Below, in pieces: positions 5,914 to 30,240 of a DNA stretch of 47,755 nucleotides (positions are counted from its first letter, which is position 1; each line of letters opens with the position of its first letter). A program made the translations under genes and the position numbers. This DNA is from an uncultured Prevotellaceae bacterium. GTDB lineage: Bacteria; Bacteroidota; Bacteroidia; Bacteroidales; Bacteroidaceae. The notes beneath the pieces were generated by a model. That model worked only from the letters and a program-made list of their open reading frames with translations. It did not search any database and had not been told where the DNA came from. The DNA lies in assembly GCA_947307015.1 (NCBI GenBank), contig CAMZHV010000017.1:1-47755 (forward strand). The letters run 5' to 3'.

Positions 5914-6612
5914 ATGAAGAAGAACTCCTATAGTCAAACAAATTCAGCTCCCTCCCTCACAGGGTGCCAGGAAGCCGGAACTATTAAGTGTTCCGGCTGG
6001 ACTGGTTCGGGGGGTGGGTCCATGGGGGGTGGGTCTGCCATAATCTTCTGTGCCCCTTCCGGCAGCGGCAAGAGCACAATCATCAACAGCTTGATGCCTC
6101 ATGAGGAATTGAACCTCGCCTTCTCCATCTCTGCTACCACACGTCCACCGAGAGGTCAGGAACAGCACGGCGTAGAATACCTTTTCTTGACGCCCGATGA
6201 GTTTCGTGAGCACATCGCTGCAGATGACTTCATTGAATATGAGGAGGTTTACACCGATCGCTACTACGGCACACTCAAGGCACAGGTGGAGAAGCAGTTA
6301 GCAGAAGGGCAGAACGTCATCTTCGATGTGGATGTGCATGGCGGTATGCGCTTGAAGGAATATTTTGGCGACCGCGCCCTCAGCCTCTTCATCCAGCCCC
6401 CCAGTATTGACGAGCTCCGCCGCCGGCTCGAAGGACGAGGCACCGATGCCCCCGAAGTCATCCAGCAGCGTCTCGACCGCGCCGCCTACGAACTCTCCTT
6501 CGCGCCCCGTTTCGATCGCATCGTCATCAACGACGACCTCGAATCGGCCAAAGCCGACGCCTACGCCGCCATCACCGCCTTTCTAGGCCCCACCCCTCAC
6601 CCTCCCTTGTAG
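5914..6612 (+). CDS. gmk: Guanylate kinase (Gmk) with element-encoded leader and tail
   Basis: Gmk phosphorylates GMP to GDP using ATP. The P-loop APSGSGKST, the GMP-binding region ISATTRPPRGQEQHGVEYLFL and the lid residues RGTDAPEVIQQRLDRA are present. Two in-frame starts compete. 5914 gives 232 residues with a 35-residue leader containing SLTG and GGGS from a palindromic element; 6022 gives 196 residues beginning MGGGSAIIF. I prefer 5914, because its upstream context is AT rich as usual in Bacteroidetes whereas 6022 sits in a G-rich hairpin, but the shorter form is closer to the family length (about 190-205). The last residues (GPTPHPPL) and the stop are also supplied by a palindromic arm. 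It lies between yicC and nadD. Confidence 0.92.
   Translation: MKKNSYSQTNSAPSLTGCQEAGTIKCSGWTGSGGGSMGGGSAIIFCAPSGSGKSTIINSLMPHEELNLAFSISATTRPPRGQEQHGVEYLFLTPDEFREHIAADDFIEYEEVYTDRYYGTLKAQVEKQLAEGQNVIFDVDVHGGMRLKEYFGDRALSLFIQPPSIDELRRRLEGRGTDAPEVIQQRLDRAAYELSFAPRFDRIVINDDLESAKADAYAAITAFLGPTPHPPL
5948..6037 (+). repeat. Palindromic element, reversed arm with core hairpin, in the gmk leader
   Basis: The arm CTCCCTCCCTCACAGGG (5948-5964) is separated from its GGGGGGTGGGTC end (6009-6020, repeated at 6024-6035) by a core containing a perfect 9-bp hairpin AGCCGGAAC / GTTCCGGCT with an 8-nt loop (5973-5998). It is the expanded version of the plain arm seen at 6669, and the tandem end shows local duplication. 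Confidence 0.8.
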
Positions 6613-6620
6613 GGAGGGAG
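6585..6620 (+). repeat. Palindromic element, forward arm ending gmk
   Basis: AGGCCCCACCCCTCA is followed by CCCTCCCT-TGT-AGGGAGGG. The TAG in the loop is the gmk stop codon, so the last eight residues of Gmk are element encoded. With the reversed arm at 6669 it brackets the gmk-nadD junction. Confidence 0.85.
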
Positions 6621-6631
6621 CTAAATGTTCT

Positions 6632-7291
6632 ATGCAAGTGTCCGCTTCACAAGTGTCACAGGTGACAACTCCCTCCCTCACAGGGAGGGCGGGAGGTGGG
6701 TCTCTGTCCACAGCCATTTACGGCGGAAGCTTTAACCCCATCCACACCGGCCATATCGCTTTGGGGCAGTGGCTCGTCCGGCATCATTTTGTCGATGAGC
6801 TGTGGTTCCTCGTCTCGCCGCAGAATCCGCTGAAACCTGCCTCGGGGCTGCTCGACGATGAGGCTCGTCTGCGTCTGGCGCGCTTGGCCATCGGGCGCAA
6901 GCGGCGGCTACGCGTCAGTGATTTTGAGTTCCATCTGCCCCGCCCATCGTATATGGTGACCACGCTCGAAGCCCTACGCACAGCCTATCCCGACCGCGAC
7001 TTCGTCCTCGTCATCGGCGCCGACAACTGGCACCGCTTCCCGCAGTGGTACAAAGCAGACGAGATCCTCAACCACCACCGCCTCCTCGTCTATCCCCGTC
7101 CTGGCTTCCCCATTGACGAAGCCGCCCTTCCCGCTGGCGTCACCCTCGTCCACACCCCCCTCATCGACCTCTCGTCCACACAGATCCGCGAGGCCATCGC
7201 CACCGATCCCGAGTACAACGGCTTTGGCCTCGAACCCCGCGTTTGGGCGGAGATCAAGGCCAAAGGATACTACGCAGACACATCCCGTTAA
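6632..7291 (+). CDS. nadD: Nicotinate-nucleotide adenylyltransferase (NadD), with element-encoded leader
   Basis: NadD joins NaMN and ATP into deamido-NAD in NAD synthesis. The nucleotidyltransferase motif GGSFNPIHTGHIALGQW, the PHN-like SPQNPLKP segment, VIGADNWHRFPQWYKADEI and the ISSTxIR equivalent LSSTQIREAI are all present. The family normally starts a few residues before YGGSFNP. Here the first 24-27 residues (including PSLTGRAGGGS) come from a palindromic element, and every ATG/GTG start lies upstream of it, so the peptide should be translated. Length is 219 against a usual 185-200. The gene is 19 bp after gmk in the same unit. It is the last core gene before the accessory stretch. Confidence 0.94.
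   Translation: MQVSASQVSQVTTPSLTGRAGGGSLSTAIYGGSFNPIHTGHIALGQWLVRHHFVDELWFLVSPQNPLKPASGLLDDEARLRLARLAIGRKRRLRVSDFEFHLPRPSYMVTTLEALRTAYPDRDFVLVIGADNWHRFPQWYKADEILNHHRLLVYPRPGFPIDEAALPAGVTLVHTPLIDLSSTQIREAIATDPEYNGFGLEPRVWAEIKAKGYYADTSR
6669..6703 (+). repeat. Palindromic element, reversed arm at the nadD start
   Basis: CTCCCTCCCTCACAGGGAGG, then GCGGGAGGTGGGTCT. Its reverse complement matches the forward arm at 5849 almost base for base. In the nadD frame it encodes PSLTGRAGGGS. Confidence 0.85.
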
Positions 7292-7307
7292 ACGTCTATA
7301 CGTGTGA

Positions 7308-7331
7308 GCGTGTCCCACTGGTGGGACACGC
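7308..7331. repeat. Perfect 11-bp hairpin downstream of nadD
   Basis: GCGTGTCCCAC-TG-GTGGGACACGC starts 16 bp after the nadD stop. No T-run follows directly (a CTCCTTTTT stretch comes 13 bp later), so it may be a processing or stabilising hairpin rather than a classical terminator. Confidence 0.6.
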
Positions 7332-7658
7332 CGAAACCATTGCTCCTTTTTGCAAAAACCCTTATATGTTTTTGGCAAAACCCTTGGGTGTTCTGATTAT
7401 AACCCTTGGGCGTGTTTTCTACCACGGCTAATCATTCCCTCCTGATTGTGTACTTGCCGTTTGTCTTACGCGCGCGCACGAGAGGCCATAAAATCCCGTC
7501 ACCTCGTCACAAAGTCACATTATCTAATTGAATATAAATGCAATATATGCGTGACGAATGACGTAACAACCCGTGATTTGGTGACAAAACTGCCCATTTT
7601 TACCCCGAATTTAAATGATATTAACATTCAAAATGATGTATTTTTAGGTTCTGGAACA

Positions 7659-8051
7659 TAAATCTCACAAAAATCAAAACTTAAATCTTTGGTGCTTCTA
7701 TTTTTCAACTTTCGGGTGTATTGGATGAAGAAAAAAACAATAAAAAAGCATGTCCTCTTATATTGTCTGTAGCTCTGTTTTTTAGCGCGAAGCGCGATGT
7801 TCTTCAGACTCGTCTCATAGAAGAGACTCGAAGAAGCGAACAAGTTCGAGCGTTTGCCTCTGCTGATGTCTATGTTTCGGGACGAAACGAGTGATGATGG
7901 CGTAGCGTGCGCAAAAGCTTGCTTTTAGGCGCATCGCCACGACAGCAGCACGTAAGTCTGAAAGACTCAGACATCAAAAGAGGTGTTTTTATTGTTTTTT
8001 TCTCTCAAACTTGAATAAGAAAGATTTAAGGTCTGATTTTTGTGAGATTTA
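7659..8051. ncRNA. 393-nt foldback structure, possible structured RNA
   Basis: The ends, 7659-7690 and 8020-8051, are inverted repeats matching at 30 of 32 positions. Inside, colinear pairings continue: 7731-7746 with 7986-8001 (16 of 16), CCTCTT 7754-7759 with 7978-7983, and GTCTG 7765-7769 with 7968-7972. The centre holds several hairpins: GTCTC/GAGAC at 7812-7827, CGAAC/GTTCG at 7837-7848, GTTTCG/CGAAAC at 7874-7888, and a long stem at 7898-7939 (TGGCG, TGCGC, AAAAGC on one side). The pattern suits either a multibranched RNA or a foldback mobile DNA. I see no clear promoter, so expression is unknown. Confidence 0.4.
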
Positions 8052-8147
8052 AGGTCTGAAATACAATCATATCTCCGAAGCCTAAAAAAGATTTAAGTAT
8101 AGATTTATGTTGGATTTAAGTTCTGAAATGCAATCATACATCCGAAA
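8023..8147 (+). repeat. GATTTAAG direct repeats
   Basis: Blocks 8046-8080 and 8113-8147 share about 30 of 35 positions (GATTTAAGKTCTGAAATRCA, then ATCATAYMTCCGAA). The leading part GATTTAAGGTCTGA also occurs at 8023, inside the right arm of the foldback, and GATTTAAG again near 8090. This suggests stepwise duplication of the element edge. Confidence 0.65.
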
Positions 8148-8428
8148 CTTGCCTCCTCTTTAAACCTATTTTCTTCCTGATTTTCGCACATTTTCATCGA
8201 TTTCGTCACCTCGTCACGCTCTGTCACACCAAAAGTCACGCCTTACCTTGCAGAAATACAGATAGATAAGGCAATCGGTGACGATGTGACGAGATTTTCT
8301 TGGTCTCTCGCGTACGCGCGCGTATGCGCGAATGTCCTGATTGTAAACCTCCAATGTAGTCTGTAGTCTTTTTCGTACAAAATCTATTTTTTCCTTCACT
8401 TTCTGCATCTGAATCCAAAAATAATCAC

Positions 8429-8436
8429 TAACTTTG
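8429..8436 (+). promoter_or_regulatory. -7 box TAACTTTG for the 8531-10851 cluster
   Basis: TAACTTTG is a perfect TAnnTTTG box 95 bp upstream of the first gene of the cluster. A possible -33 (TTTC) lies near 8400. The leader includes a GGCTC/GAGCC hairpin at 8458-8472. Confidence 0.6.
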
Positions 8437-8530
8437 CCACCGAAAGGGCAAAAAGTAGGCTCTGAGTGAGCCGAAATGAAGCTTAGCGAGAGGTGTCTGA
8501 TCGAACTTTATTGGATAATAACGTATCGTT

Positions 8531-8983
8531 ATGATAGCAAAAGAACCGAAGTTTAAATATCAGGAGCAGATAGAGAAGTTGGTGGCCTTAGGTTGTCAGC
8601 TTCCTGAATTGTTTGCCCCTGATAATATGCAGGCGTATCGATTTGCTTTCTCAGAATCAGGCCACCAAAACCATGTGCCGCAATACTTGCTCAATCCCAA
8701 ACGAATGCTTCAGGAGATAGACAAAGGCAGGGCCAATGCATCACTGCTGGCGCTCTCTTGCTTCACGACATCCGAAAAAGCAGAGGCCTTCTACACGAGT
8801 TTGCGAAAGGCATTCAGGAATGTTGCCATTTCAATCGGTGAATCCTTATCGGAGGGCCGCCTCACTAACGAAGATGGTCGGAAGACGGTCTCTGCTCCAA
8901 ATGGCCATTTTGACTTCTATGAATATGAGGGTTGCGACCTGAACAAGACTTTTGTAATTACCAAGAACTTGACCAATAAATAG
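8531..8983 (+). CDS. Hypothetical protein, first gene of the J-domain-like cluster
   Basis: I do not recognise this 150-residue protein. It is predicted soluble and mixed alpha/beta, with no signal peptide or membrane segment. Noticeable segments are a helical start (KYQEQIEKLVALGCQLPELF), a middle with KGRANASLLALSCF, and a C-terminal half GHFDFYEYEGCDLNKTFVI. It is 4 bp upstream of the next gene and follows a good -7 box, so it leads a probable five-gene unit of unknown role. Its coding composition is less G/C rich than the flanking housekeeping genes. Confidence 0.75.
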   Translation: MIAKEPKFKYQEQIEKLVALGCQLPELFAPDNMQAYRFAFSESGHQNHVPQYLLNPKRMLQEIDKGRANASLLALSCFTTSEKAEAFYTSLRKAFRNVAISIGESLSEGRLTNEDGRKTVSAPNGHFDFYEYEGCDLNKTFVITKNLTNK

Positions 8984-8987
8984 GACT

Positions 8988-9509
8988 ATGCAGGAGATAA
9001 ATGGTTATAAGATAGAATACGATTTCAGCACATTCCGGAAGATTGCCGATTTGGTTTACCTCGACGGCCCATTCCTGTCACACTATGTCAGCAGCAAGGG
9101 TGACGACTACCTGTTCTATTGGGTGGACCGAGACGAAAAGGACAACCGTTGGCTCGTACTGCGCGTAAGTCTGCCTAACCTACAGAAATATATTGGGAAA
9201 AAGATATCGCTACGTGACCTCATAGCGAGTCCTAACGACGGGTTTCTCTATGCTGTTGATGTGGACAACGATTTGCACTACCACGATGTGAAGCTCATCC
9301 AACCCACCTCATTGCCAGAAGAATACCTGCCGACCGCCGACTCCTTCTATGATTTTGAACCCGTCCCGGCAGAGGATGCAGAGGAGCTTATGACCTATGA
9401 ACTGACAATTCCTTACAAGGAGCGCAACCGCTTCGAAGATATCCTTCACAAAATCGGCTTCCCCATTTCTGCACTGAAGAAGATGGCCAGTCGAGCTGCC
9501 GTTTTCTAA
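8988..9509 (+). CDS. Hypothetical protein, possibly DUF6575-like
   Basis: A 173-residue acidic soluble protein. The first 80 residues (IADLVYLDGPFLSHYVSSKG, then DDYLFYWVDRDEKDNRWLV) look like a beta-rich domain I associate tentatively with DUF6575, of unknown function. The rest contains an acidic linker (EPVPAEDAEELM) and a short helical end. No catalytic motif is seen. It is tightly spaced with its neighbours (4 bp before, 17 bp after), implying co-expression with the 8531 gene and the membrane protein that follows. Confidence 0.75.
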   Translation: MQEINGYKIEYDFSTFRKIADLVYLDGPFLSHYVSSKGDDYLFYWVDRDEKDNRWLVLRVSLPNLQKYIGKKISLRDLIASPNDGFLYAVDVDNDLHYHDVKLIQPTSLPEEYLPTADSFYDFEPVPAEDAEELMTYELTIPYKERNRFEDILHKIGFPISALKKMASRAAVF

Positions 9510-9526
9510 CTTATCCGTGGAAAACC

Positions 9527-10135
9527 ATGCAAGAAGACAATATTAACTTTGAAGAGATTGGCAAGGGCGAGACCACAAACGCAGACCAATCATCCTCCCT
9601 GTTCAAGCAACCCATTCGGGGATGCTATGAGAGCCTTCATGCAGAATTGAAAGCAAGATGTGCCCCGGAGAACTTTATGAATCCCTACGAGCCGGAGAAG
9701 GTTTCAAGGGCAAACGAACTCTATGCAGAGGTTCTTGCTACCAACGCGCAAGCAGACGAGAAACTCAAGTCGCTCCGTCTGAGGGCAATGGAGGAACTGG
9801 GCGTGAAATTCTCCACGGAACAGTTATTTGAAAAGTTGACAGCAGTTTGCAACCCGAAGAACTTTACAGGTGACTCCTATAACAAAGAACGATTGGAATT
9901 GGCAAATGGGCTATATCAGCAGATACTGATGAATGCTGACAATATCTTTGCGTTGGAAGAGATAGCGTATGAGGCTGATGAATTAGTTACACTATATAAT
10001 AAAGCTACATTTGGAAGTGGCGTTTCTCATCAACCTGAGATAGAAGAAAGCTGGTGGCCATTATTTTGGCTTGTTGCCACTATTTTTGCTTTTATTTTAA
10101 TAGGAGTCATTCTTATAATGTTCGAAAATAGATAA
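9527..10135 (+). CDS. Tail-anchored protein with two degenerate J-domain-like modules
   Basis: 202 residues. Residues about 34-92 and 97-157 are repeats of one helical module with the pattern L-x2-(R/V)C-x-P-x-NF followed by (R/L)AN-x-LY-x2-(V/I)L. At the place where J-domains carry HPD, the modules carry APE and NPK. The third gene downstream has the same module with an intact HPD. A single hydrophobic segment (about 177-198, beginning WWPLFWLVATIFAF) follows, with only a few residues after it, so the protein is probably anchored by its tail with the modules in the cytoplasm. The stop overlaps the next start (TAATG). The function is unknown. Confidence 0.8.
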   Translation: MQEDNINFEEIGKGETTNADQSSSLFKQPIRGCYESLHAELKARCAPENFMNPYEPEKVSRANELYAEVLATNAQADEKLKSLRLRAMEELGVKFSTEQLFEKLTAVCNPKNFTGDSYNKERLELANGLYQQILMNADNIFALEEIAYEADELVTLYNKATFGSGVSHQPEIEESWWPLFWLVATIFAFILIGVILIMFENR

Positions 10136-10539
10136 TGTTTGCAAATACCTGGAATAAAATAATCAGTTGGTTCCGCGACCGCAGTGAGCGCAACAGGCTT
10201 GTACGCAGTTTCAATGAATCTGCACGCGAGGCATTCGTTTTAGGTGAAGCCCCTGCCATGCTCGAAGCAAGCATATCTCGCGGCGACCCTGCATACAAGC
10301 ACGCCTTTTCGAGATGGATGTATTCCGGCTTCCGCATCAAGATATTCACAGGAAGGCTACTGACCAAAGACGAAATGATTTTTATTGGCAACGCCATTCT
10401 GAGCAATGAACAGTTGGTGAGGCGTTTAGTGGTACTTGGATGGGACACGCTGGAAATCCACGGTGAGAATGCCACGTATGGCTGCAAATGGAAATTGGCA
10501 GACCATATAGAAACCATCAATCTACTTAATTCATGGTGA
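10135..10539 (+). CDS. Hypothetical protein of the J-domain-like cluster
   Basis: A 134-residue basic protein that I do not recognise by function. It starts with an amphipathic, arginine-rich helix (WFRDRSERNRLVRSF), has a conserved-looking middle (ISRGDPAYKHAFSRWM, SGFRIKIFTGR) and ends with VRRLVVLGWDTLEIHG and a short helix. There is no signal peptide or membrane span. Its start overlaps the stop of the preceding membrane protein, so the two are translationally coupled and may act together at the membrane. Confidence 0.75.
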   Translation: MFANTWNKIISWFRDRSERNRLVRSFNESAREAFVLGEAPAMLEASISRGDPAYKHAFSRWMYSGFRIKIFTGRLLTKDEMIFIGNAILSNEQLVRRLVVLGWDTLEIHGENATYGCKWKLADHIETINLLNSW

Positions 10540-10545
10540 ACACGT

Positions 10546-10851
10546 ATGGGCAAAGTATTTTCGTGGCTGACTCAAAGGCTCGGTATCAAGTCGGAGCATC
10601 AGCAATACAAACAGCAAGTGATGAGCGAGACTGCCACTATTGACTTCTCTGCCATCACCCATGACTGGGAAAAGTCCAAACGCCTATATGACATTCTGAA
10701 GAAGAAGTGCCATCCAGACCTGTACACAGGTGAGCAAAACGAAACGGCTACCCGTCTCTTCCAGAGGTTGATGGAGAATAAGTACAACTATGCTGAACTG
10801 CTCAAAATAAAGGAATTTGCAGAAAAGGAGTTGGCAATAACAATCCCCTGA
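10546..10851 (+). CDS. Small J-domain-like protein with an HPD motif
   Basis: 101 residues. An N-terminal linker is followed by a helical hairpin at about 43-97 reading RLYDILKKKCHPDLYTGE and then NETATRLFQRLMENKYN. HPD (residues 56-58) is the Hsp70-stimulating tripeptide of J-domains, and the flanking helices fit helices II and III, though helix I is weak and the domain is short. Recruitment of DnaK is a reasonable inference, not shown. The same module without HPD occurs twice in the membrane protein at 9527-10135. It is the last gene of the cluster. Confidence 0.78.
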   Translation: MGKVFSWLTQRLGIKSEHQQYKQQVMSETATIDFSAITHDWEKSKRLYDILKKKCHPDLYTGEQNETATRLFQRLMENKYNYAELLKIKEFAEKELAITIP

Positions 10852-10938
10852 CTTTGTTGTTGTTTCTTTAGGTAGGTTCTTTTGTTCTTTTCATCATTTG
10901 TGGTCTGAACACAGAGAGAACATTGCTTGATGATGTCT

Positions 10939-11286
10939 CTATCTATTTTCATATTCTGCACTGGAAAGTTCGTTTTTATGTATAATTGCTACACTTTTCC
11001 TAACTTTCTGCTGCAAAATTAGTATCTCTTCTACGATGTCTGTTTTCTGAGGGTCTGGGTTAAGTTGCAGAATAAACGTGAGCAGAGGCTCATAACTGTC
11101 AAAGGCCCGCTCTTCTTTCACACAATAATCTTCGCAGGTGTTGAAATAATAGTAGTATCTACCGCGGTATTCGCTTTGCACGCACTGCTTCAGGTGAGTA
11201 ATTTCGGCTATTGCTTCTGGCGTGAGCTCAATACCAGCGAGGTTTCTAATCACATAGTGTAGCGGTCTTCTTCTCATTGTTTTCAT
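10939..11286 (-). CDS. Hypothetical protein
   Basis: A 115-residue protein on the strand opposite to the cluster. It starts MKTMRRRPLHYVIRNLAGIE, has a segment rich in aromatic residues (YRGRYYYYFNTCEDYCVKEE) and ends in a helical region. No family is recognised; two cysteines near residue 52-56 (CEDYC) could bind metal but this is speculation. A second in-frame Met at residue 4 may be the start. The low G+C and isolation suggest a mobile or poorly conserved gene, but the frame is intact. Confidence 0.6.
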   Translation of the reverse strand: MKTMRRRPLHYVIRNLAGIELTPEAIAEITHLKQCVQSEYRGRYYYYFNTCEDYCVKEERAFDSYEPLLTFILQLNPDPQKTDIVEEILILQQKVRKSVAIIHKNELSSAEYENR

Positions 11287-11538
11287 ACGTTTTTGTTCTT
11301 GGTGCTTATAATATGGTCGAAACTGTCCAAAAATTCAAAAACCGCCCCATCTTTTATCATTTATTAACTTGAAATTCCCACCCCAGAAGGCTGAGGACTA
11401 TAAAGGCAAGGATGAGAAGGATGATTGTTCCCCGACGCTAGGCAAAAATCTCTACAAGAAAAGATGATTTTTGTGATGATTTATTTGGGAAATCGGGGGA
11501 TAATCTGTACTTTTGTGGGCAAATAAGCAACAGGTATC
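11287..11538. other. Intergenic region upstream of vsr
   Basis: About 250 bp of AT-rich sequence between two divergent genes. The right end holds the vsr promoter (11484-11515). On the minus strand near 11383-11450 a short open stretch would encode a hydrophobic helix with no start codon, perhaps a gene remnant. Nothing else is supported. Confidence 0.5.
11484..11515 (+). promoter_or_regulatory. vsr promoter: TTTG, 20 bp, TACTTTTG
   Basis: A -33 box TTTG (11484-11487) and a -7 box TACTTTTG (11508-11515) are separated by 20 bp, matching the Bacteroidetes consensus. The vsr start follows 23 bp after the -7 box. Confidence 0.75.
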
Positions 11539-12078
11539 ATGGACAAACTTTCTCCACAACAACGGCACAAAAACATGTCGGCTATCCGTTCTCAAAACAC
11601 GAAGCCCGAAATGATTGTGCGGCGGGGGCTGTGGAGAAGGGGATTCAGATATCGGTTGAATCATAAGCGGCTGCCAGGCCATCCTGATTTGGTACTGAGG
11701 AAATACAGGACGTGCATCTTCGTGAATGGATGCTTCTGGCATGGGCACCACATCAATCTACAAAATACTGATTTACAAGCTACGATTGAGAATAGCGAGT
11801 GCTGCAAGATTCCAAAGACGAATCGCGAGTTTTGGGTGAAGAAGATTTGTAGGAACAAGGAGCGGGACACCGCAGACCTTCGCAAATTGGCGGCAATGGG
11901 ATGGCACTGCATCACGGTGTGGGAATGTGAGTTGAAACCATCGAAGCGAGAAGAGACGTTGACCACTCTTGCCAACACGCTCCGTGAGATTTATCTTCTT
12001 GACCGACATGCTCCCAAGCCATACGATATCGATGATTATTACGACTTCGAGATGCCAATGGCAGCGGAAGACGAATAA
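11539..12078 (+). CDS. vsr: Very short patch repair (Vsr) endonuclease
   Basis: Vsr nicks 5' of the T in T:G mismatches formed by deamination of 5-methylcytosine. The 179-residue protein has the N-terminal MSAIRSQNTKPEM segment, LPGHPDLVLRKYRTCIFVNG with the metal-binding Asp, CFWHGHH, and the family motif KIPKTNREFWVKKI followed by the core strand WHCITVWECEL. In E. coli Vsr the loop before CFWH has Thr-His; here it is Val-Asn, seen in many distant homologues to my knowledge. No cytosine methyltransferase gene lies in the window, so this is an orphan here. The acidic C-terminal tail is extra. The gene has its own promoter and faces the acyltransferase gene convergently. Confidence 0.93.
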   Translation: MDKLSPQQRHKNMSAIRSQNTKPEMIVRRGLWRRGFRYRLNHKRLPGHPDLVLRKYRTCIFVNGCFWHGHHINLQNTDLQATIENSECCKIPKTNREFWVKKICRNKERDTADLRKLAAMGWHCITVWECELKPSKREETLTTLANTLREIYLLDRHAPKPYDIDDYYDFEMPMAAEDE

Positions 12079-12112
12079 TCTCATCAATATAAACAGAAAA
12101 AGGGAAGTGCTG

Positions 12113-13225: not shown

Positions 13226-13262
13226 ACGTGTTGATGAATTGGAAGCTAAAGTTTTAACCTCC

Positions 13263-13276
13263 GCGCCGCAAGGCGC
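13263..13276. terminator. Small GC hairpin after xylA
   Basis: GCGCC-GCAA-GGCGC, a stable tetraloop hairpin between xylA and the acyltransferase gene. No T-run follows on the minus strand (TTAAAACTTTAGC only), so it is at best a weak terminator or a stabiliser of the xylA 3' end. Confidence 0.4.
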
Positions 13277-13290
13277 ATAACATCCTTCAA

Positions 13291-14598: not shown

Positions 14599-14610
14599 TG
14601 TTTTAATAAA

Positions 14611-14648
14611 AGACCCCCCCCCCTGCCCCTCCCTTGTAGGGAGGGGAG
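14611..14648 (+). repeat. Palindromic element arm upstream of xylA
   Basis: AGACCCCCCCCCCCTG followed by CCCTCCC-TTGT-AGGGAGGGG-like hairpin. In the direction of xylA it is a reversed arm ending 13 bp before the ATG. Its partner is at 14749-14786. Confidence 0.85.
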
Positions 14649-14748
14649 TAAGATGTCTTAGAGCGGGAGGGCTATTAGGGTCATTCTTTAAAGGGTTAAA
14701 GGATTATTTAATAATTGAACTATAGAATACTATTCTTGAAAGTAATCA
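14649..14748. other. AT-rich spacer between the two xylB/xylA arms
   Basis: About 100 bp containing AAAGGGTTAAAGG and TTATTTAATAATTG. No gene or promoter consensus is seen. In the transcript the spacer would form the loop of a long stem if the flanking arms pair. Confidence 0.5.
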
Positions 14749-14786
14749 CTCCCCGCCCTACAAGGGAGGGGCAGGGGGGAGGGTCC
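14749..14786 (+). repeat. Palindromic element arm directly after the xylB stop
   Basis: CTCCCCGCCCTACAAGGGAG followed by GGGCAGGGGGGAGGGTCC. In the xylB direction it starts one base after the TAA as a forward GGACCC arm, the same placement as the arm after yicC. Together with 14611-14648 it forms an inverted pair. Confidence 0.85.
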
Positions 14787-14787
14787 G

Positions 14788-16266
14788 TTAGGAGGGGATC
14801 TTCTTTACCCAACGCTCGTAGGCTTCGCGGTAGGCTGCCTGATTAGCGATGACGGGCTCGATGACTTGTAGCTTCTTCAACGTAGCGAAGGCTTCGTTGT
14901 GGTCCTTATAGATGCCTGCACCCATACCGGCGCCGCGAGCAGCACCTACGCTACCGTCGGTGTCGCACAGCTCGATGGTGGCTCCTGTGACGCCAGCCAG
15001 CGTGTCACGGAAGATGGGACTGAGGAACATATTGGCCTTGCCGGCACGGATGGTCTTGAGTTCCATGCCCATCTGCTTCATCACTTCCATGCCGTAAGCG
15101 AAGGAGAAGACGATGCCCTCCTGAGCAGCACGGAGGAGATGAGCCTGCGAGTGGGTGTTGAAGTTGATGCCATGGATGCTGGCCCCCACTTCCTTGTCGC
15201 AGAGGACGCGCTCAGCACCGTTGCCGAAGGGCAGGATGGTGAGGCCTGCGGAGCCGATGGGCGCCTGAGCTGCGAGGTCGTTCATCTCTGCGTAGCCGAT
15301 ACCCGTTGGAGCTACGTTGCGGCGAGCCCATGAGTTGAGGATGCCTGTGCCGTTAATGCAGAGCAGGACGCCAAGACGCGGGTCAGCTGCGTTGTGGTTG
15401 ACATGTGCGAAGGTGTTCACACGGCTCTGGGGGTCGTAGCCCACCTGTCCAAGCACGCCGTAGACAACACCAGAGGTGCCAGCTGTCGTGGCCGCTTCGC
15501 CCGGCTCAAAGACATTGAGGGAGAGGGCGTTGTTGGGCTGGTCGCCAGCGCGGTAGGTGATGGGGGTGCCAGCTGCGAGACCGAGCTCTGCGGCTGCGGC
15601 TGCATTGACCTCACCCTGAAGGCCGAAGGTCGGTACGATGTCGGCAAGGAGACTGGCGGGAATACCGTAATAGTCGAGCAGGAACTGTGCGGGGCTGTTC
15701 TCCTGGAAATCCCACATCATGCCTTCGGAGAGTCCGCTGACGGTGGTGGCAGCAGTACCGGAGAGGCGCAGGGCAATATAGTCGCCAGGAAGCATCACCT
15801 TATATATTTTAGAGAAGGTGTCGGGCTCGTTCTCGCGTACCCAGGCGAGCTTCGAGGCTGTGAAGTTGCCGGGAGAGTTGAGCAGGTGGCTGAGGCATTT
15901 CTCGCTGCCGAGCTCCTGGAAAGCCTTCTGACCGTAGGGCACAGCACGCGAGTCGCACCAGATGATGGCATCGCGCAGGGGTTTGAGGTCTTTGTCTACG
16001 CAGACGAGGCCGTGCATCTGATAGGAGATACCGATGGCCTTGATGTCTGCCTTGTCGGCACCGCTCTGGCTGAGGACGTCAGCTGTGGCGCCCTTCAGGT
16101 ATGACCACCATGCTTCGGGGTCTTGTTCTGCCCATCCTGGACGCACAGCCTTGATGGGTGCTTCACTCTTAGGATAGAAGGCGGAGGCCACGCAGGCACC
16201 GCTCTGGGCATCGACCAGCGACGCTTTCACGCTGGATGAGCCGATATCATAACCGAGGAGATACAT
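14788..16266 (-). CDS. xylB: Xylulokinase (XylB)
   Basis: XylB phosphorylates D-xylulose to xylulose 5-phosphate, feeding the pentose phosphate pathway. This FGGY kinase has the N-terminal phosphate loop GYDIGSSSVKASLVD, the sugar-binding segment ISYQMHGLVCVD, and AGDQPNNALSLN whose Asp is the usual catalytic base. The C-terminal domain shows GAARGAGMGAG. The length of 492 is normal. It is 58 bp downstream of the transporter, across a TTTAAAG-word repeat, and upstream of xylA. Confidence 0.96.
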   Translation of the reverse strand: MYLLGYDIGSSSVKASLVDAQSGACVASAFYPKSEAPIKAVRPGWAEQDPEAWWSYLKGATADVLSQSGADKADIKAIGISYQMHGLVCVDKDLKPLRDAIIWCDSRAVPYGQKAFQELGSEKCLSHLLNSPGNFTASKLAWVRENEPDTFSKIYKVMLPGDYIALRLSGTAATTVSGLSEGMMWDFQENSPAQFLLDYYGIPASLLADIVPTFGLQGEVNAAAAAELGLAAGTPITYRAGDQPNNALSLNVFEPGEAATTAGTSGVVYGVLGQVGYDPQSRVNTFAHVNHNAADPRLGVLLCINGTGILNSWARRNVAPTGIGYAEMNDLAAQAPIGSAGLTILPFGNGAERVLCDKEVGASIHGINFNTHSQAHLLRAAQEGIVFSFAYGMEVMKQMGMELKTIRAGKANMFLSPIFRDTLAGVTGATIELCDTDGSVGAARGAGMGAGIYKDHNEAFATLKKLQVIEPVIANQAAYREAYERWVKKIPS

Positions 16267-16270
16267 TTGA

Positions 16271-16321
16271 TATGTTAATGTTTAATGTTTAAAGTTTAGA
16301 GTTTAAAGTTTAAGGTTTAAT
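16271..16321. repeat. TTTAAAG/TTTAATG word repeat between the transporter gene and xylB
   Basis: Six successive heptamer-like words (GTTTAATGTTTAAAGTTTAG and on). Similar words occur at 23776-23793 and 43481-43499. The repeat ends right at the transporter stop codon. Confidence 0.7.
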
Positions 16322-16324
16322 GTC

Positions 16325-17803: not shown

Positions 17804-17835
17804 TGTGAGTTGATGAGGTTTTTGATTTTGCACGG

Positions 17836-20320: not shown

Positions 20321-20323
20321 GCC

Positions 20324-21787: not shown

Positions 21788-21798
21788 GGTAAGGAAAA

Positions 21799-23759: not shown

Positions 23760-23792
23760 GGGGAGTGATAATAATTTAATGTTTAAAGTTCT

Positions 23793-24977
23793 TTAGCTCA
23801 AAATCGTGCGTCCGACGGCCTTACGGATTTCAAACATATACATCAGGCAGGAAAGCAGGAAATAGACGCCTGCGATGATCCATATAGCCATCATCTCGCG
23901 GTGGCAGTCGCCGAGGGAAGCGCCCATGCCCGAGATGCGAACGTAGGCGTTGGCGCCCCACGTGGAGGGGAAGAACATACCGACTGCTTTCCAGAATGGA
24001 GGGATGGAGGCACCAGGCCAGCTGACACCCGTGAGGAAGAGCAGGGGAATGGACATGAAGACGAACAACAAGATGCAGTCCTCACGACGATAGACGAAGC
24101 CGGAATAGAAAATCGCCATGAACGTGCAGGCCAGCAGATAGGGCACGAAGAAACCTATCAGATCCCAGAAATGAGCGAGCTGCGGCAAACCGAACCAACG
24201 CGTGACGCAGACAGACATATAGATGGCCATGAGCAGGAACACGAGGAAGTGGACGAGACCACGACCGAGCACAATGGCGATGGCGTTCTTGTAGTGGCGC
24301 GTGGGCGGGATGACGAGGCCGCGGAAACGCTCACGCGAGCGACCCATGGACATGCCTACGCCAAGACACAAAGCCTGCTGCAGAATGAGCATGAGCACAG
24401 GTGGGATAAGGAAGGCGCAGAAGCCTCCGGCGGAGTTGTACAACTTCACCTCTTCGAAACGGACAGGCCAGCGCGCAAGCTCTTCTTCGCGACGAGTGAT
24501 ATTCTCCTGATGCTCTCGCACTTTTATGGAGCGATTGAGTTCCTGAGCTACATTGACAATGCCAAGATATGCGACCTTGTAGTAGAGCATAGAGGTCAAG
24601 TCGCTGTAGAGTCCAACGACAGTCTGATTGCCACGCCACAGTTCTTTGTCGAACTCGGCAGGCACACGCATGATGGCATACACATCACGTCGACGCATAA
24701 GTTCCTGCGCTTCGTCCATGCTGGTGCAATGAGCTGCTATCTGTACCTCAGCAGTGGCATCCACACGACGGATGAAGTCGCGGCTGCGGGCACTCATGCA
24801 GTCATCGACAACGCAAATGGGCAACTCGCGTTGCGTCTCGGTGCTGTAGATCATCGCATAAAGCAACGGATAAGCCAGCGGCAGCAAGATGATGAAGAGC
24901 AGAATGCCTTCGTCCTTAACAATATCGCTGAGCTCATCGAGCCAGACATGCAGTATCGGAAAATGAGGTTTAATCAC
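23793..24977 (-). CDS. ABC-2 type transporter permease
   Basis: A 394-residue inner-membrane protein of the ABC2_membrane_3 (YhhJ/YhiH) type. One N-terminal helix (DEGILLFIILLPLAYPLLYAMI) is followed by a periplasmic domain of about 140 residues (ELPICVVDDCMSARSRDFIR, MRRRDVYAIMRVPAEF), then five helices in the C-terminal half. Its stop-side neighbour is rhaB; its start overlaps the end of the second permease (ATGA). The two permeases form a pair with HlyD and TolC genes upstream. No ATPase gene is present in the cluster. Confidence 0.88.
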   Translation of the reverse strand: MIKPHFPILHVWLDELSDIVKDEGILLFIILLPLAYPLLYAMIYSTETQRELPICVVDDCMSARSRDFIRRVDATAEVQIAAHCTSMDEAQELMRRRDVYAIMRVPAEFDKELWRGNQTVVGLYSDLTSMLYYKVAYLGIVNVAQELNRSIKVREHQENITRREEELARWPVRFEEVKLYNSAGGFCAFLIPPVLMLILQQALCLGVGMSMGRSRERFRGLVIPPTRHYKNAIAIVLGRGLVHFLVFLLMAIYMSVCVTRWFGLPQLAHFWDLIGFFVPYLLACTFMAIFYSGFVYRREDCILLFVFMSIPLLFLTGVSWPGASIPPFWKAVGMFFPSTWGANAYVRISGMGASLGDCHREMMAIWIIAGVYFLLSCLMYMFEIRKAVGRTILS

Positions 24978-26149
24978 GGGATATATTCTTTATGGAGGAA
25001 TGCGTCAGTCAAGCGATAATAGAACAGCTGCGGCAAGAGGAAGATGGCAATGAGTGCCACAACACTTGTCCAAATATAACTAATGGGATAGCCGTTCAGT
25101 GCCTGATTGACATAGATGAGGAAATAATGGTGCAAAGGGAAAACGTTAGACAACCACTGGAAAGGCTCGTCCATCGCCGAGACCGGGAAGGAGAAGCCAG
25201 CCAGCGAGAGCTGCAATACACCAAACAACGAACATGCGGACATAGCCATACGCATCTGACTCGGAAACACCTCGAACATAAGAAGGCCGAAACCTTGGGA
25301 GGCGAGAACAGCAACGAAGCCCCAAAGCATCATGCGCGGAATCCCGCAAGCGCAAGGGAACTGCAGATAGCTGTAGAAGACGAGGTCGATAAGCCAGAAG
25401 ATGATGGTGTAGAGCACCGTTTGAGGCAAGAGTTTGCCTAGAACAGCAACCCATACGTTGTTGCCTGACATCTCGTAGAGTTTTTTCTGGCTTCCACGTT
25501 TCCATTCCATGCCAATGGAGTATGAGGTCGTAAGCATGATGACAATCATCAACAAGCCTGGCACGAGAAGATTGGACAAGACAACAGAGTAGTTAAGATG
25601 CGGGTTGCCAAGGGGATGACTCTCAATGACAATAGGCTGTAGGGTGCCCATGATTTGGTCATCGCGGAAGCCACGGGCACGCATCGTCTCACGTGTAATA
25701 GCCAATCCGACCATTTCGCCCATCTTGCGCATATCCTTCATCAGCAACGAAGCAGGGATGTAATATATGTCGTTGGTGTAGAACGAAATAACGGGTTGAC
25801 GCTGCGTCAGTGCCGCCTCAGTAGTACCCTTGGGGATACGGAAGATGGCATAGATCTCGCCACGCTGCATAGCCTGACGCGCCTGTGTGAAGCTGGTGGT
25901 CTGCAGCACGAAATTCGTCTCCTCCATCGAGCCGAGGATGCGCGTGAGCTGGCGCGTGACGTGCGTATCGTCCTCATCGACGAGTGCTGCCGGCAGTTTC
26001 GTGGGCAATCCCGCTCCCATCATCGTTGTGAAGAACGTCAGGAATCCCAACGGTGCCACAAACATGATGATGATGAAGATAGGACGGCGCGCGAAAGTGC
26101 TAAGCTCGCGACTCGTGATGAGCCATATTCTGTTTAATGCTTTCAGCAT
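24974..26149 (-). CDS. ABC-2 type transporter permease (partner)
   Basis: 391 residues, with the same topology as the next gene: an N-terminal helix (IIIMFVAPLGFLTFFTTMMG), a periplasmic domain with ALVDEDDTHVTRQLTRILGS and MQRGEIYAIFRIPKG, and five C-terminal helices. The shared RGEIYAIFRIP / RDVYAIMRVP motif shows that the two permeases are paralogues. It begins 5 bp after the HlyD-family gene. The exported substrate is unknown; relatives are linked to drug or envelope-lipid export. Confidence 0.88.
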   Translation of the reverse strand: MLKALNRIWLITSRELSTFARRPIFIIIMFVAPLGFLTFFTTMMGAGLPTKLPAALVDEDDTHVTRQLTRILGSMEETNFVLQTTSFTQARQAMQRGEIYAIFRIPKGTTEAALTQRQPVISFYTNDIYYIPASLLMKDMRKMGEMVGLAITRETMRARGFRDDQIMGTLQPIVIESHPLGNPHLNYSVVLSNLLVPGLLMIVIMLTTSYSIGMEWKRGSQKKLYEMSGNNVWVAVLGKLLPQTVLYTIIFWLIDLVFYSYLQFPCACGIPRMMLWGFVAVLASQGFGLLMFEVFPSQMRMAMSACSLFGVLQLSLAGFSFPVSAMDEPFQWLSNVFPLHHYFLIYVNQALNGYPISYIWTSVVALIAIFLLPQLFYYRLTDAFLHKEYIP

Positions 26150-26154
26150 TGCAT

Positions 26155-27144
26155 TTATTCCTTAATGATAACGGTCATGCCAGCGAGGATGTCCTGAACA
26201 TCAGCCTGATTCACGGGACGTGCGATCACCTCGAAGGTCTTGAGGTCATACTGGTCGAGGGCCTTAGTAGCCTTCCATGTAGCATAGCTGCCCATGACAT
26301 TAATGCCTGCAATGCGAACCATGAGCTCGCGATCAACGGCAGGAGCATAGACCTTCAGTTCCATACCCACTTTCATGCCCGGCAGATAGTCCTCGCGAAC
26401 ATTAAAGATGAAGCGTACATCATAGTCTTTGGCGATATTCATGATGGGAGCGCCTGTACCAACGAGCTCGCCCACTTCAGGGAAGATCTCGGTAACGGTG
26501 CCGTCTGCTGTAGCCAGCAAAACAGTCTCCTTCTGATAGCCCTGCACTTCGGTGACAGCACCCTGAGCGCGTGCAACCTGAGCGGCAGCAGCAGCTTTGT
26601 CTTCGCGGCGTGCGCCTTCGCAAGCCATCTCGTACTGACTCTTAGCTGCTTTCTCCGTTGCCTGCATCGCCTTCAACTGAGCTTCAGCCTCGTCGCGTTT
26701 CTGGGCGGGGATGACGCCCTCATCGTAGAGACGGGAGACACGTGCGAAAGTCTTCTCGGCAACCTCCAAGCCAGCCTGAGCCTTTTGCCAAAGCTCGTAC
26801 GCGCCCTGTATCTCTTGCTGACGGGCTCCGTTCTTGGCTTTTTGTTCGATGGCCTTGGCTGCAGCTTCGGCAGCTTGAGCCTGCATCATTTTAGCTTCTA
26901 CTTCAGGTGAATCCATGATCACAAGCGTGTCGCCCGCTTTCACCTTGTCGCCAGTCTGCACACGTATTTCCTTGACACGGCTGGGCACTTTGCTCGACAC
27001 ACGATAGTCGGTGGTTTCTGCCTGTCCTTGCAGAACTTCTTTAGGTTTCGGCAGGAAAATGCCGACGAAGATGACCAGAAGCATCACGCCCACCAGCACA
27101 AAGGCGATGATGAGCAGATTGTTGAATTTTGTTCGTTTAGCCAT
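26155..27144 (-). CDS. HlyD-family membrane fusion protein
   Basis: The periplasmic adaptor links the permease pair to TolC. The 329-residue protein has one N-terminal membrane anchor (about 10-30, LIIAFVLVGVMLLVIFVGIF) and a split lipoyl domain (VKAGDTLVIMDSPEVEAKMM, and ETVLLATADGTVTEIFPEVG). Between them is a long coiled coil (about 75-200) rich in A, E, K and Q. The beta-barrel part ends with NQADVQDILAGMTVIIKE. It sits 41 bp after the TolC gene and 5 bp before the first permease. The YhiI/EmrA-like layout fits the cluster. Confidence 0.92.
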   Translation of the reverse strand: MAKRTKFNNLLIIAFVLVGVMLLVIFVGIFLPKPKEVLQGQAETTDYRVSSKVPSRVKEIRVQTGDKVKAGDTLVIMDSPEVEAKMMQAQAAEAAAKAIEQKAKNGARQQEIQGAYELWQKAQAGLEVAEKTFARVSRLYDEGVIPAQKRDEAEAQLKAMQATEKAAKSQYEMACEGARREDKAAAAAQVARAQGAVTEVQGYQKETVLLATADGTVTEIFPEVGELVGTGAPIMNIAKDYDVRFIFNVREDYLPGMKVGMELKVYAPAVDRELMVRIAGINVMGSYATWKATKALDQYDLKTFEVIARPVNQADVQDILAGMTVIIKE

Positions 27145-27185
27145 AATATCTATTTTTTCTTTATTTCAATATTTTCAATTTACAT

Positions 27186-28826
27186 TCAATGTGAAAGAGT
27201 TCCCAAAGCCCTCATGAGATAGAGGTCAGCGAGGCGGACATCAATCTCCGCATCGACCAGTGTGGAATGCGATGAGAGCCAAGCGGTTTGTGCCTGTAGC
27301 ACATTGCTCACGGGGATGACACCTTCCTTCATGCCGAGGTTGGCCATACGCAAGTTCTCATCGGCTTGCTCCTGTGAGCGCATCGCGGTAACGAGACGTC
27401 GTTGTGCTTCCTGCAACTTCTGACGGTTCTGGTTAACTTGTAGTGTAATTTTCTCGCGAACCTCTTCGGCTTGCGTTTGCGCAATCTGAGCCTCCACCTT
27501 CGCCTGCTTCACCTTGTAGAAACGATCGCCCCACGTGATGATGGGTACTTTCAGCATAACACCTACGGTCCACATTCCACCAAACTTCTTTTGGAAGCCG
27601 TTATAGACGTTGGGATTAGAAACAAGATAGCCTGCGGTGAGTGCCAGATTGGGCATATATTCCGAACGCGCCACTTTCACCTGTTCGCGCTTCACCTGAG
27701 CTGCGATCTCCAGAGCGCGAAGTTCGGGGCGATGAGACAGAGCCGTCTCAACGGCAAAGGGAACATCAGCATTCGGCTGCAACGATGCTGACAGGTGCTG
27801 TGCGCCATCAGCTGTTACATTGCTGCCCTCGTCCTCCAAAGTGAAGTTAGAGTCCAGGGGTAATCCGCAGAGCTGAGCTAAAGCCATGCGTGAGAGCATC
27901 AAACCATTTTCGACCTGAATCAGAGCCACTTCGGCTTCGTTGACTTTCACCTTCACAGAGAGTCCGTCGGCTTTCGTTGTCATGCCTTCTGCAATGAGCT
28001 TATCCACATCGCCGTCCAACTTCTTCACGGTAGTCAGGAAACTCTCGGCCAACTGCTTCTTGCCCTCTAAGGCTACAATGCGCCAGTAGGCTTCATCGAC
28101 ACTCACCAGAAGATCTTGCTCCTCTAATGTGGTTTTCTCACCAGCGGCCTGTTCTGCCAGACGTGTAATCTTGTCGTAGGCGCGAATCTTGCCGCCCATA
28201 TACAGGGGTTGCGTCAACATCACGGCTGCGCCAGCCATGTTACGTGTATCTGTGCGGAAAGCATCGACGATGTTCTGGCCTGTAGCATCAAGGGTGGCTG
28301 CCATCGACGTGAGCATAGCGTTGAAGACCGTAGAGGCCTGCTCCATATAAGGTGCAGCCATCTGCTGTATCAACTGAGGGTTAGCCATCATCTGTACCAG
28401 CTGCGGATTTTGAGCCAGGATAGCCTGTACCTCAGGATTCTGCATGAGCTGTAAAAACTCAGGGCTCTGCATGAAGCCAGCCCAGCGCTGCTGAAGATCG
28501 GCAGACCCCTGTGCAAGACCTTGACGAATAGAACCCGCCAGATTGGTTCCCATATTGGAGAGCGCCTGCTTCTGGTCATTATTCAAAAGTGAAATTTCAC
28601 GTGACGTGTACTGATAAGTGCCGACGGCATTGACACGAGGGAAGTAATTGCTCAGTGCCGACTTGCGTTGCCAGTGTGCAGCCTCCTGCTTGAGGGCACT
28701 CATCTTCAGCTCTTTGTTGTTACGTAATGCTAATGTGCGACAGCTATCCAACGACAGCGTCTGTCCGACGGCAGACGAAACTATGAGGAGTGACAGCGCA
28801 CCAGCCACAATAAACATTCTTTTCAT
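27186..28826 (-). CDS. TolC-family outer membrane efflux protein with an NP-repeat insertion
   Basis: A signal peptide (to about GQT) is followed by two OEP repeats of the trimeric outer-membrane channel: LSLDSCRTLALRNNKELKMS in the first and LSHRPELRALEIAAQVKREQ in the second. At 546 residues it is about 100 longer than usual. The extra part (about 85-200) is rich in Q, M and A and holds four motifs spaced by about ten residues, SPEF (121), NPEV (130), NPQL (140) and NPQL (149). This resembles the NP repeats of STI1/ubiquilin-type helical modules. It probably extends the periplasmic coiled coil. It lies 22 bp downstream of hisS on the same strand. Confidence 0.9.
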   Translation of the reverse strand: MKRMFIVAGALSLLIVSSAVGQTLSLDSCRTLALRNNKELKMSALKQEAAHWQRKSALSNYFPRVNAVGTYQYTSREISLLNNDQKQALSNMGTNLAGSIRQGLAQGSADLQQRWAGFMQSPEFLQLMQNPEVQAILAQNPQLVQMMANPQLIQQMAAPYMEQASTVFNAMLTSMAATLDATGQNIVDAFRTDTRNMAGAAVMLTQPLYMGGKIRAYDKITRLAEQAAGEKTTLEEQDLLVSVDEAYWRIVALEGKKQLAESFLTTVKKLDGDVDKLIAEGMTTKADGLSVKVKVNEAEVALIQVENGLMLSRMALAQLCGLPLDSNFTLEDEGSNVTADGAQHLSASLQPNADVPFAVETALSHRPELRALEIAAQVKREQVKVARSEYMPNLALTAGYLVSNPNVYNGFQKKFGGMWTVGVMLKVPIITWGDRFYKVKQAKVEAQIAQTQAEEVREKITLQVNQNRQKLQEAQRRLVTAMRSQEQADENLRMANLGMKEGVIPVSNVLQAQTAWLSSHSTLVDAEIDVRLADLYLMRALGTLSH

Positions 28827-28848
28827 ACCTTATATTAAATATGTACTC

Positions 28849-30240
28849 TTACGATTGTACTTTTGCTATCAATTCGTCAGTCGACACGACCAACTGCTCA
28901 CCTGTGATCATATCCTTGAGTGTGAACTTGCCTGCTGCCATCTCCGTCTCACCGGCAATGGCAACGAAAGGAATGGCACGAGCGTTGGCATAGGCCATCT
29001 GCTTCTTCATTTTGGCCGCATCTGAATAGATCTCAGTGCGGATGCCGGATCTGCGGGCAGCAGCCACGGCGGGAAGGGAATAAGCGGCTTCGGCATCGCC
29101 AAAGTTCACAAAAAGCAACTCCGTCGTCGTACTCACTTCTTTGGGATAGAGATCCAGCTGGTTGAGAACATCATAGATACGATCAGCACCAAAGGAGATA
29201 CCTACTCCCGAAAGCCCGGGCATACCGAAGATGCCTGTCAGGTTGTCGTAGCGACCGCCGCCAGTGATGCTGCCAATCTCCACGTCCAAGGCTTTCACTT
29301 CGAAGATACAGCCCGTATAATAGTTGAGGCCGCGGGCGAGGGTGAGATCGAGTTGGAGGGCAGACCCACCCCCTACTCTACCAGTGAGAGAGGGTGCAGT
29401 TACTAAAGCGTATTTATTCAGAACAAATTCTACTTCGTCACAACCTTTCAGACCCATCTCGCTGTCTTTGAGCACTTCGCGCATCGTCTGCAGCTTCTCC
29501 TTGTTGGAGCCGCTGAGTTTGATAATGGGTTGCAGGCGTTCAATGGCTTCAGCGGGGATTCCGTTCTCCGCCAACTCGGCGTTGACAGCGTCGAGACCTA
29601 TCTTGTCGAGCTTGTCAATGGCTACGGTGATGTCCACAATCTTGTCGGCCTGCCCAATCATCTCGGCAATGCCGGTGAGGATTTTGCGGTTGTTGATCTT
29701 AATACATACACGGATGCCGAAGCGATGGAACACTTCGTCGATAATCTGCATCAGCTCAACTTCGTTCAACAGGGAATCGGAACCAACGACATCGGCATCA
29801 CACTGGTAGAACTCACGATAACGCCCTTTTTGCGGACGATCGGCACGCCAGACCGGTTGAATCTGGAAACGGCGGAACGGAAGTGTCAGTTCGTCACGGT
29901 GCTGCACCACAAAACGGGCGAAAGGCACGGTGAGGTCATAACGCAGACCTTTCTCACAAATACAAGCTGCCAGTTTCGGTGTACCGCCCTCGCAGAATGC
30001 CGAAGGATCAACGCCCCGAAGGAAATCACCACTGTCAAGGATCTTGAACAACAGTTTGTCGCCCTCTTCGCCATACTTGCCCATGAGCGTCGAGAGGTTC
30101 TCCATGGCGGGAGTCTCGATCTGCTGGAAGCCGTACTGCGCATAGACGCTACGTATGGTGTCGAAAATATAATTGCGACGTGCCATCTCCTGTGGTCCGA
30201 AGTCACGCGTTCCTTTGGGAATACTTGGTTTTTGTGCCAT
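28849..30240 (-). CDS. hisS: Histidyl-tRNA synthetase (HisS) with element-encoded insertion
   Basis: HisS charges tRNA-His. Class II motifs are present: motif 1 near the start ([19 protein letters not shown]), motif 2 with [20 protein letters not shown] and [12 protein letters not shown], the histidine-A sequence [15 protein letters not shown] and motif 3 [11 protein letters not shown]. The C-terminal anticodon domain starts after [12 protein letters not shown]. About 14 residues containing [12 protein letters not shown] are inserted before [15 protein letters not shown], encoded by a palindromic element at 29362-29399. The insertion is in frame, just before the active-site strand, and does not touch motif residues. 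Length 463 fits a Bacteroidetes HisS plus the insert. The gene has its own promoter (30270-30300). Confidence 0.97.
29362..29399 (+). repeat. Palindromic element arm inside hisS
   Basis: AGACCCACCCCCTACTCTAC then CAGTGAGAGAGGG. It is a diverged copy of the arm; the hairpin is imperfect, which suggests an older insertion. In the hisS frame it reads [11 protein letters not shown], the same peptide as in NadD and (split by a core) Gmk. No partner arm is nearby. Confidence 0.8.

Follow-up and report, generated by a model that had tools for sequence, protein, structure and literature searches.

A translatable palindromic element in essential genes of an uncultured Prevotellaceae bacterium and its association with DUF559 nuclease genes

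Palindromes that are read in frame within proteins and homing enzymes related to Vsr are known separately. The Rickettsia palindromic elements are in-frame palindromic repeats in many unrelated genes, at termini as well as inside them, and the accessible parts of the papers name no enzyme for them (PMC10969869, PMC3733652). Repetitive extragenic palindromic (REP) sequences and REPINs, with REP-associated tyrosine transposases (RAYTs), are described in the available portions of two papers as hairpin repeats and inverted dimers that lie at gene ends and supply stops to open reading frames (ORFs) (PMC3733652, PMC6006769). The EDxHD homing endonuclease I-Bth0305I (PMC3943268, seen in part; PDB 3r3p) has a nuclease domain related to DUF559, and inteins with a homing endonuclease place a nuclease in frame in essential enzymes such as leucyl-tRNA synthetase (LeuRS). 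Caulobacter VsrA, a DUF559 protein of the PD-(D/E)XK type that is tied in vivo to the DNA-damage response, was proposed to be a mismatch-repair enzyme in a paper whose accessible part does not mention palindromic arms (PMC12907096). Here we describe a short element with hairpin arms in a 47,755-nt stretch of DNA from an uncultured Prevotellaceae bacterium (GCA_947307015.1, contig CAMZHV010000017.1, C17 in our numbering), the whole of which is hereafter called the window. The element codes for parts of the otherwise unrelated proteins NadD, HisS, Gmk and Dxr, and its arms match those found around DUF559 nuclease genes.

As with the Rickettsia elements, a translatable palindrome is found in frame within unrelated genes, but its arms match those around a DUF559 gene, and both sequence and host are different. 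Unlike those of REP and REPIN sequences, the arms follow the occurrence of DUF559 and not that of Y1_Tnp. In contrast to I-Bth0305I, DUF559 is surrounded by hairpin arms, no self-splicing intron or intein was detected and many dispersed copies exist, and in contrast to inteins no splicing (Hint) domain was among the Pfam matches of the 10 DUF559-fused proteins that were scanned. We give a probability of roughly two in three to the reading that the shared peptides are footprints of a short element, arm-spacer-arm or single arm, which probably is a non-autonomous version of a DUF559-encoding element predicted to cut DNA for its spread. The autonomous form, of about 0.5 kb, would consist of an arm, the DUF559 gene and an inverted arm; the nuclease would recognise the hairpin arms and break DNA, and host repair would fill the break with a copy of the element; no target-site duplication was visible by eye at the arm ends. 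Copies within genes would survive only if a frame passes through the arm. A gene could survive insertion over its start, since translation from a start codon within the spacer or ahead of it would pass through the arm, and it is the translatability of the arms that would allow the element to reside within proteins. In other Bacteroidota essential enzymes contain the entire nuclease gene, intein-like, as an insert that keeps the frame.

The draft genome (2.99 Mb, 94 contigs, 86% complete) is Bacteroidaceae-like, and its HisS has its nearest matches in drafts from rumen or other gut Bacteroidaceae, the top one (86%) being L086 from 'Rumen_Coassembly_mag_972'. The core of the hairpin arm occurs genome-wide in 170 exact copies and in 224 with at most one mismatch, whereas a reversed control pattern gave 0. 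The peptide SLTGRxGGGS is a single reading frame of the arm. Its back-translated pattern was found at one site (NadD), with 0.00 expected by chance, another back-translated 24-mer had no match, and a strict oriented arm pattern detected two diverged sites and no others. In outward reading the arm is the hairpin CCCTCCCTnnnAGGGAGGG followed by a G-rich tail that ends in GGGTC, sometimes in decayed form, and the consensus drawn by eye from 89 cores in the fetched loci is RGACYCWCCCCCYGC-core-GAGYRRTNAC, a spacer, and GTNACYGCTC-core-GCGGGGGGWGRGTCY. In the outward direction the arm codes for a linker rich in Pro, Gly and Ser (APSLTGRAGGES), and in the inward direction it yields either a stop (after PPL or RPPC) or an open linker (PPALPVREG), and arms contribute N-termini, C-termini including the stop codon, or internal segments.

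A frequent layout is that of inverted arm pairs around a spacer, at gene ends or in loops, resembling REPINs or miniature inverted-repeat transposable elements (MITEs). In the window, 6589-6620 pairs with 6669-6700 (81% complementary) and 5866-5893 with 5937-5964 (79%), and the complete arm-spacer-arm copy listed in Table 1 sits between an FGGY kinase gene identified by Pfam and a gene which we take to be XylA-like, coding for neither. The element has the properties of a MITE, being short, with terminal inverted repeats, present in many copies and devoid of an enzyme gene, and it shares its ends with an enzyme-coding element: a common arm of this genome is letter-identical to that of DUF559 locus L273 in a relative, and is also close to that of the genome's own DUF559 locus L260.

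The association of the arms with DUF559 genes is strong. In the genus, 50 of 92 listed DUF559 matches were examined, two of which (L274, L275) had been picked for arms already seen, and the upstream flank was scored against the reverse-complemented downstream flank, with a threshold of ≥18 for bracketing and with L268 excluded for its too short flank. A score of ≥18 was obtained in 38 of 49 loci (median 27; 36/47 without L274 and L275), including 4 of the 6 copies of this genome, compared with 54 of 461 mismatched flank pairs between genomes (median 10) and 1 of 57 control genes (gmk 1/28, dxr 0/29). The matching arms around the DUF559 gene in relatives therefore make DUF559 a candidate mover. 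In three loci of relatives an open frame leads from a DUF559 ORF across an arm into gmk (L234 in G047, L237 in G013, L244 in G020, the last with a stop within DUF559), and for G046 and G051 the coordinates indicate the same DUF559-arm-gmk continuity. At L236, L246, L264 and L268 (G016, G042, G003, G043) DUF559 is fused at the C-terminus of a mutase-like ORF, presumably phosphoglycerate mutase; the mutase-like ORF of the present genome (L006 1475-2785) ends in an arm remnant and no more.

Of the other explanations, the one that survives best, although we consider it unlikely, is that these are ordinary REP or REPIN repeats moved by a Y1 (HUH) RAYT transposase, with DUF559 as a passenger that landed between REPs. 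REPs within ORFs that supply stops, together with partner RAYTs, are known from the accessible part of PMC3733652, as is a Bacteroidetes tnpA subclass 2.6 from that of PMC6006769, and one Y1_Tnp gene is present in this genome. By eye, however, that gene, the only one found in this draft genome, is flanked by different hairpins, and a cognate Y1 transposase bounded by these arms was thus not found here. Over 61 genomes, uncorrected for kinship, the number of cores correlated with the number of DUF559 genes (rho 0.54, p 8e-6; presence 29/8 vs 6/18, Fisher 5e-5), whereas a correlation with Y1_Tnp was not clear (rho 0.16, p 0.23; 16/7 vs 19/19, Fisher 0.18); five genomes with 43-76 cores (G015, G016, G018, G019, G040) had no Y1_Tnp match, and the arms of DUF559 are matched pairs in other phyla too. 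The hairpins that flank the Y1_Tnp gene of this genome (L018; G000:C32:16581-19922), one GCCAGCCATTTCAATGGCTGGC-like and one GCGTGCCTTTAGGTACGCG, are perhaps a REP family of its own.

The positions of the arms relative to genes were analysed in the window and at 49 further places, taken from a list that covered 50 of the 224 and situated on contigs C1-C8. In this sample 48 of 65 cores overlapped an ORF of ≥120 aa, shadow frames counted. An outward ORF of ≥130 codons was present at 38 of 60 oriented arms. For 30 of these 38 there was no ATG within 45 nt past the arm; their phases were distributed 21, 7 and 2, and 29 of the 30 were open through the arm, while the phases of the remaining 8 were 5, 2 and 1. 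Among 17 inward ORFs of ≥130 codons, 10 ended at TAG or TAA, one of them (L177) at its own stop, and 7 were open. Among the proteins whose N-terminus is read through an arm are IspD, a DEAD-box (RecQ-like) helicase, a FabF-like synthase, TGT, a RimO-like radical-SAM protein, UvrC, IspF (YgbB) and Ddl, where some of the sub-family names are our assumption. An acyltransferase also carries an internal arm, and in several exported proteins the arm would, by our own reading, lie inside the signal-peptide region.

Where the element sits on the leuC-leuD junction, the leuC stop and the leuD start are missing and there is a single ORF of 739 aa with the domains Aconitase (31-479) and Aconitase_C (546-667). 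In G040 there is an apparent decayed copy of the same insertion, in which the arms are degraded and the frame is still open, and this is the best evidence for translation that sequence offers. The fused frame is also seen in G011, where no arm is recognisable (L316-L318 for this genome, G040 and G011). Support for translation of the arms is indirect only, coming from the frame bias, from the open LeuC-LeuD frame in the sister species and from a LeuRS that is the sole copy and contains a full in-frame insert.

A further explanation, somewhat less probable than movement by a RAYT, is that the arms are retained at gene ends as RNA hairpins (terminators, stability, attenuation), that translation starts downstream and that the protein reading is incidental. 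Gene ends are indeed the site of many arms, the copy at xylAB is part of neither adjacent coding sequence, and NadD has a CTG where its relatives have ATG. This explanation does not account for the internal sites in HisS, LeuC-LeuD and the acyltransferase or for the inserts in LeuRS and MetH, nor for the bias in frame where no ATG follows the arm, and Dxr has no other start codon.

In the window, Pfam confirmed the families of NadD, HisS, Gmk and Dxr, in which an earlier note on this DNA had reported the same peptide, and the peptides are present, reading ..VTTPSLTGRAGGGSLSTAIYGGSFNP in NadD, ..APSLTGCQEAGTIKCSGWTGSGGGSMGGGSAIIFC in Gmk and ..TTLPLKGERGGGLKQIAILG in Dxr. As the note had stated, each of the four is encoded by a hairpin arm, and the direction of reading, outward, is shared by all. 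The arm in HisS is strongly decayed, and that in Dxr falls outside the range 5948..29399 given for them. The note had also stated that no usable start codon separates arm and fold in NadD and Dxr; no in-frame ATG, GTG or TTG is found there, but in NadD a CTG occupies the exact position of the relatives' ATG, and a CTG start is therefore possible. The extra core noticed in Gmk turned out to be a second repeated variant of the arm, with 25 copies including that in Gmk (the loci searched were partly chosen for that variant). The claim that the frame in use never runs into the stop of the palindrome was wrong, since other frames take their stop from the arm, as at the Gmk C-terminus, where ..GPTPHPPL and the stop fall within the next arm.

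Comparison with orthologues supported the note's proposal, in which the new terminal and loop segments came from a mobile palindrome: most orthologues compared lack these segments, and many other genes of this genome have the same arm in the same frame. The HisS segment was missing in 80 of 80 relatives, and the dxr arm was absent from 13 of 16 loci, an arm-like segment being recognised by eye in this genome, G040 and G041. Gmk of most relatives starts ATGAGCAAAGTC or similar right after yicC, whereas here the element adjoins the yicC stop and the ATG of the relatives is missing. Arm-like sequence before gmk was seen by eye in at least 5 of 21 loci (this genome, G029, G042, G046, G051), which may reflect shared descent. 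The note had omitted that the palindrome makes up only an arm of a larger element with inverted repeats, that arms also provide stops for upstream genes and that matching arms bracket a DUF559 gene in relatives. The loop of HisS that holds the segment contains different inserts in L029, L044, L049 and L057, and HisS of L086 and L019 have an arm-like insert at a different site and an arm-spacer-arm at a third site, respectively. In the HisS model (mean predicted local distance difference test, pLDDT, 72) insert residues 284-291 are in a low-confidence coil, which is indicative only.

Table 1 Arms and arm-containing genes in the window
Feature	Position	Strand	Description
Dxr gene	83..1324	-	N-terminus MNIQHSQQSKVTT-LPLKGERGGGL-KQIAILG
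Diverged hairpin arm	about 1243..1275	-	Codes Dxr segment
RimM gene	1317..1946	-	Extra segment of ~33 residues; 102 residues span 69 positions of the Pfam PRC_RimM model
Probable diverged whole arm-spacer-arm in rimM	1510..1609	-	From sequence alone
Left arm	5849..5893	+	Immediately 3' of yicC stop codon
Gmk gene	5914..6612	+	About first 40 residues element-coded; last residues and stop arm-coded
Right arm, second variant with extra hairpin core	5948..6036	+	Codes SLTG..GGGS of Gmk
Left arm	6588..6620	+	Gives Gmk C-terminus PTPHPPL and TAG stop
NadD gene	6632..7291	+	N-terminal segment arm-coded
Right arm	6669..6703	+	Codes PSLTGRAGGGS of NadD
Complete arm-spacer-arm	14607..14790 (14607-14649 with 14748-14790)		43-nt arms, 91% complementary
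HisS gene	28849..30240	-	Internal segment
Decayed arm	29364..29395	-	Codes HisS segment; strongly decayed

DUF559 is related in sequence and fold to I-Bth0305I (PDB 3r3p) and to Vsr, and is placed by this relation among predicted nucleases of the EDxHD/Vsr type, although the Foldseek comparison with Vsr itself gave only E 0.43. A DUF559 gene was assigned to the EDxHD family in the accessible part of PMC9403480. PADLOC returned weak matches, the best with a 'homing endonuclease' profile (1.6e-6), and the score with NCBIfam NF007294 (DUF559) was far under its cut-off. In the phylum sample DUF559 was found in 109 of 198 genomes and 66 of 103 genera. Plasmids gave 32 DUF559 records, and 10 annotated ones (Cyanobacteria, Deinococcota, Alphaproteobacteria) were scored. 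For 90 mismatched pairs (median 10.25, maximum 40) the 99th percentile was 25.3; 7 of the 10 loci scored above this value, and L310 (20.5), L306 and L307 were under it.

Pfam placed DUF559 between parts of LeuRS (L279, L282), MetH (L299, L305) and HsdR (L283, L285), behind the methylase domain of HsdM (L293), and also in three restriction/methylase proteins (L277, L278, L280). A search for the LeuRS insert gave 765 proteins, and all 120 of those listed carry PF04480 together with LeuRS domains, several being from named isolates, including Formosa agariphila and Zunongwangia profunda. The nuclease motif is retained in 118 of these 120. The single LeuRS at E ≤ 1e-30 of G163 (one contig, 100% complete) is the fused one, and likewise that of G113 (40 contigs), while G166 and G095 have a LeuRS without the DUF559 insert. 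The LeuRS of L279 and L282 also contain additional short arm-like segments (NSSPLGRSGGDF, NSSPSGRLGGTL), which suggests that one gene may have been invaded repeatedly.

If DUF559 were instead a repair or defence nuclease, the surrounding hairpins would cause rearrangement and the bracketing would be a by-product. The proposal of a Caulobacter DUF559 protein as a Vsr-like mismatch-repair enzyme (PMC12907096) and the report of Legionella segments with DUF559 and a transposase as recombination hotspots (PMC12308824), both taken from the accessible parts of these papers, would fit. However, arms match within a locus and far less between loci, and the nuclease sits between neighbouring genes as well as within unrelated host genes; we regard this explanation as quite improbable. 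An artefact of repeat assembly, to which a metagenome draft of 94 contigs and 86% completeness is open, is judged very unlikely in view of the in-frame nuclease in the one-contig G163 and in named isolates such as the two above, the bracketed copies on complete plasmids and the arm-like sequence before the same genes in several independent genomes.

Several points weigh against a DUF559-driven element. The cutting of arms and the moving of DNA by DUF559 are predictions, and mean pLDDT was 50-66 in 4 of 5 DUF559 models. In the genus 11 of 49 loci scored <18, including two that belong to this genome (L259, L261, of its 6 copies). The 29 loci examined in the phylum sample were those that headed the list, and only 9 of them reached ≥18 (control median 9.5, 95th percentile 16.7, maximum 27.5); bracketing is therefore weaker there than in the genus. 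The correlations given above lack a correction for kinship, G018 (80% complete) has 70 cores and neither a DUF559 nor a Y1_Tnp match, and 8 genomes have DUF559 and zero copies of the core, perhaps using other arm variants. LeuC has a further arm that stands in place of native residues with the length unchanged, so that simple insertion does not fit every copy, and the LeuRS inserts examined are today without recognisable arms.

With odds a little better than even, DUF559 would represent an unrecognised class of mobile element, in which a homing-type (Vsr/EDxHD) nuclease gene is bounded by hairpin inverted arms without a classical transposase or splicing, and in which translatable arms let miniatures and the whole gene live inside essential proteins in several phyla, rewriting termini, fusing genes and seeding segments. 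A literature search, outside which most subscription papers and preprints fell, found no description of in-frame palindromes combined with a Vsr-like homing enzyme. If the reading is right, the common annotations 'endonuclease domain-containing protein' and 'DUF559' would denote an enzyme that belongs to selfish DNA of wide distribution, and this type of enzyme would be the one to seek behind other protein-coding palindromes, e.g. those of Rickettsia. Essential proteins would gain segments through selfish DNA that is translated and not spliced out, and N-termini called in such genomes may be mobile-element sequence. Since cultured marine isolates are among the bacteria with such a LeuRS, it can be tested directly whether the embedded nuclease is translated and active.

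Other repeats were also observed in the window. A different hairpin-rich repeat (CTTCGCCCCCCTTGGGGGGCTATAGGGGGC) is present at 3924-3987 in two near-identical 30-nt copies, the intergenic region 3872-4770 contains AT-rich repeats (AATTTACAATTTGACAATT) and TTAAACG repeats, and at 8016-8146 a 64-nt direct repeat occurs twice, the copies being spaced 67 nt and 81% alike.

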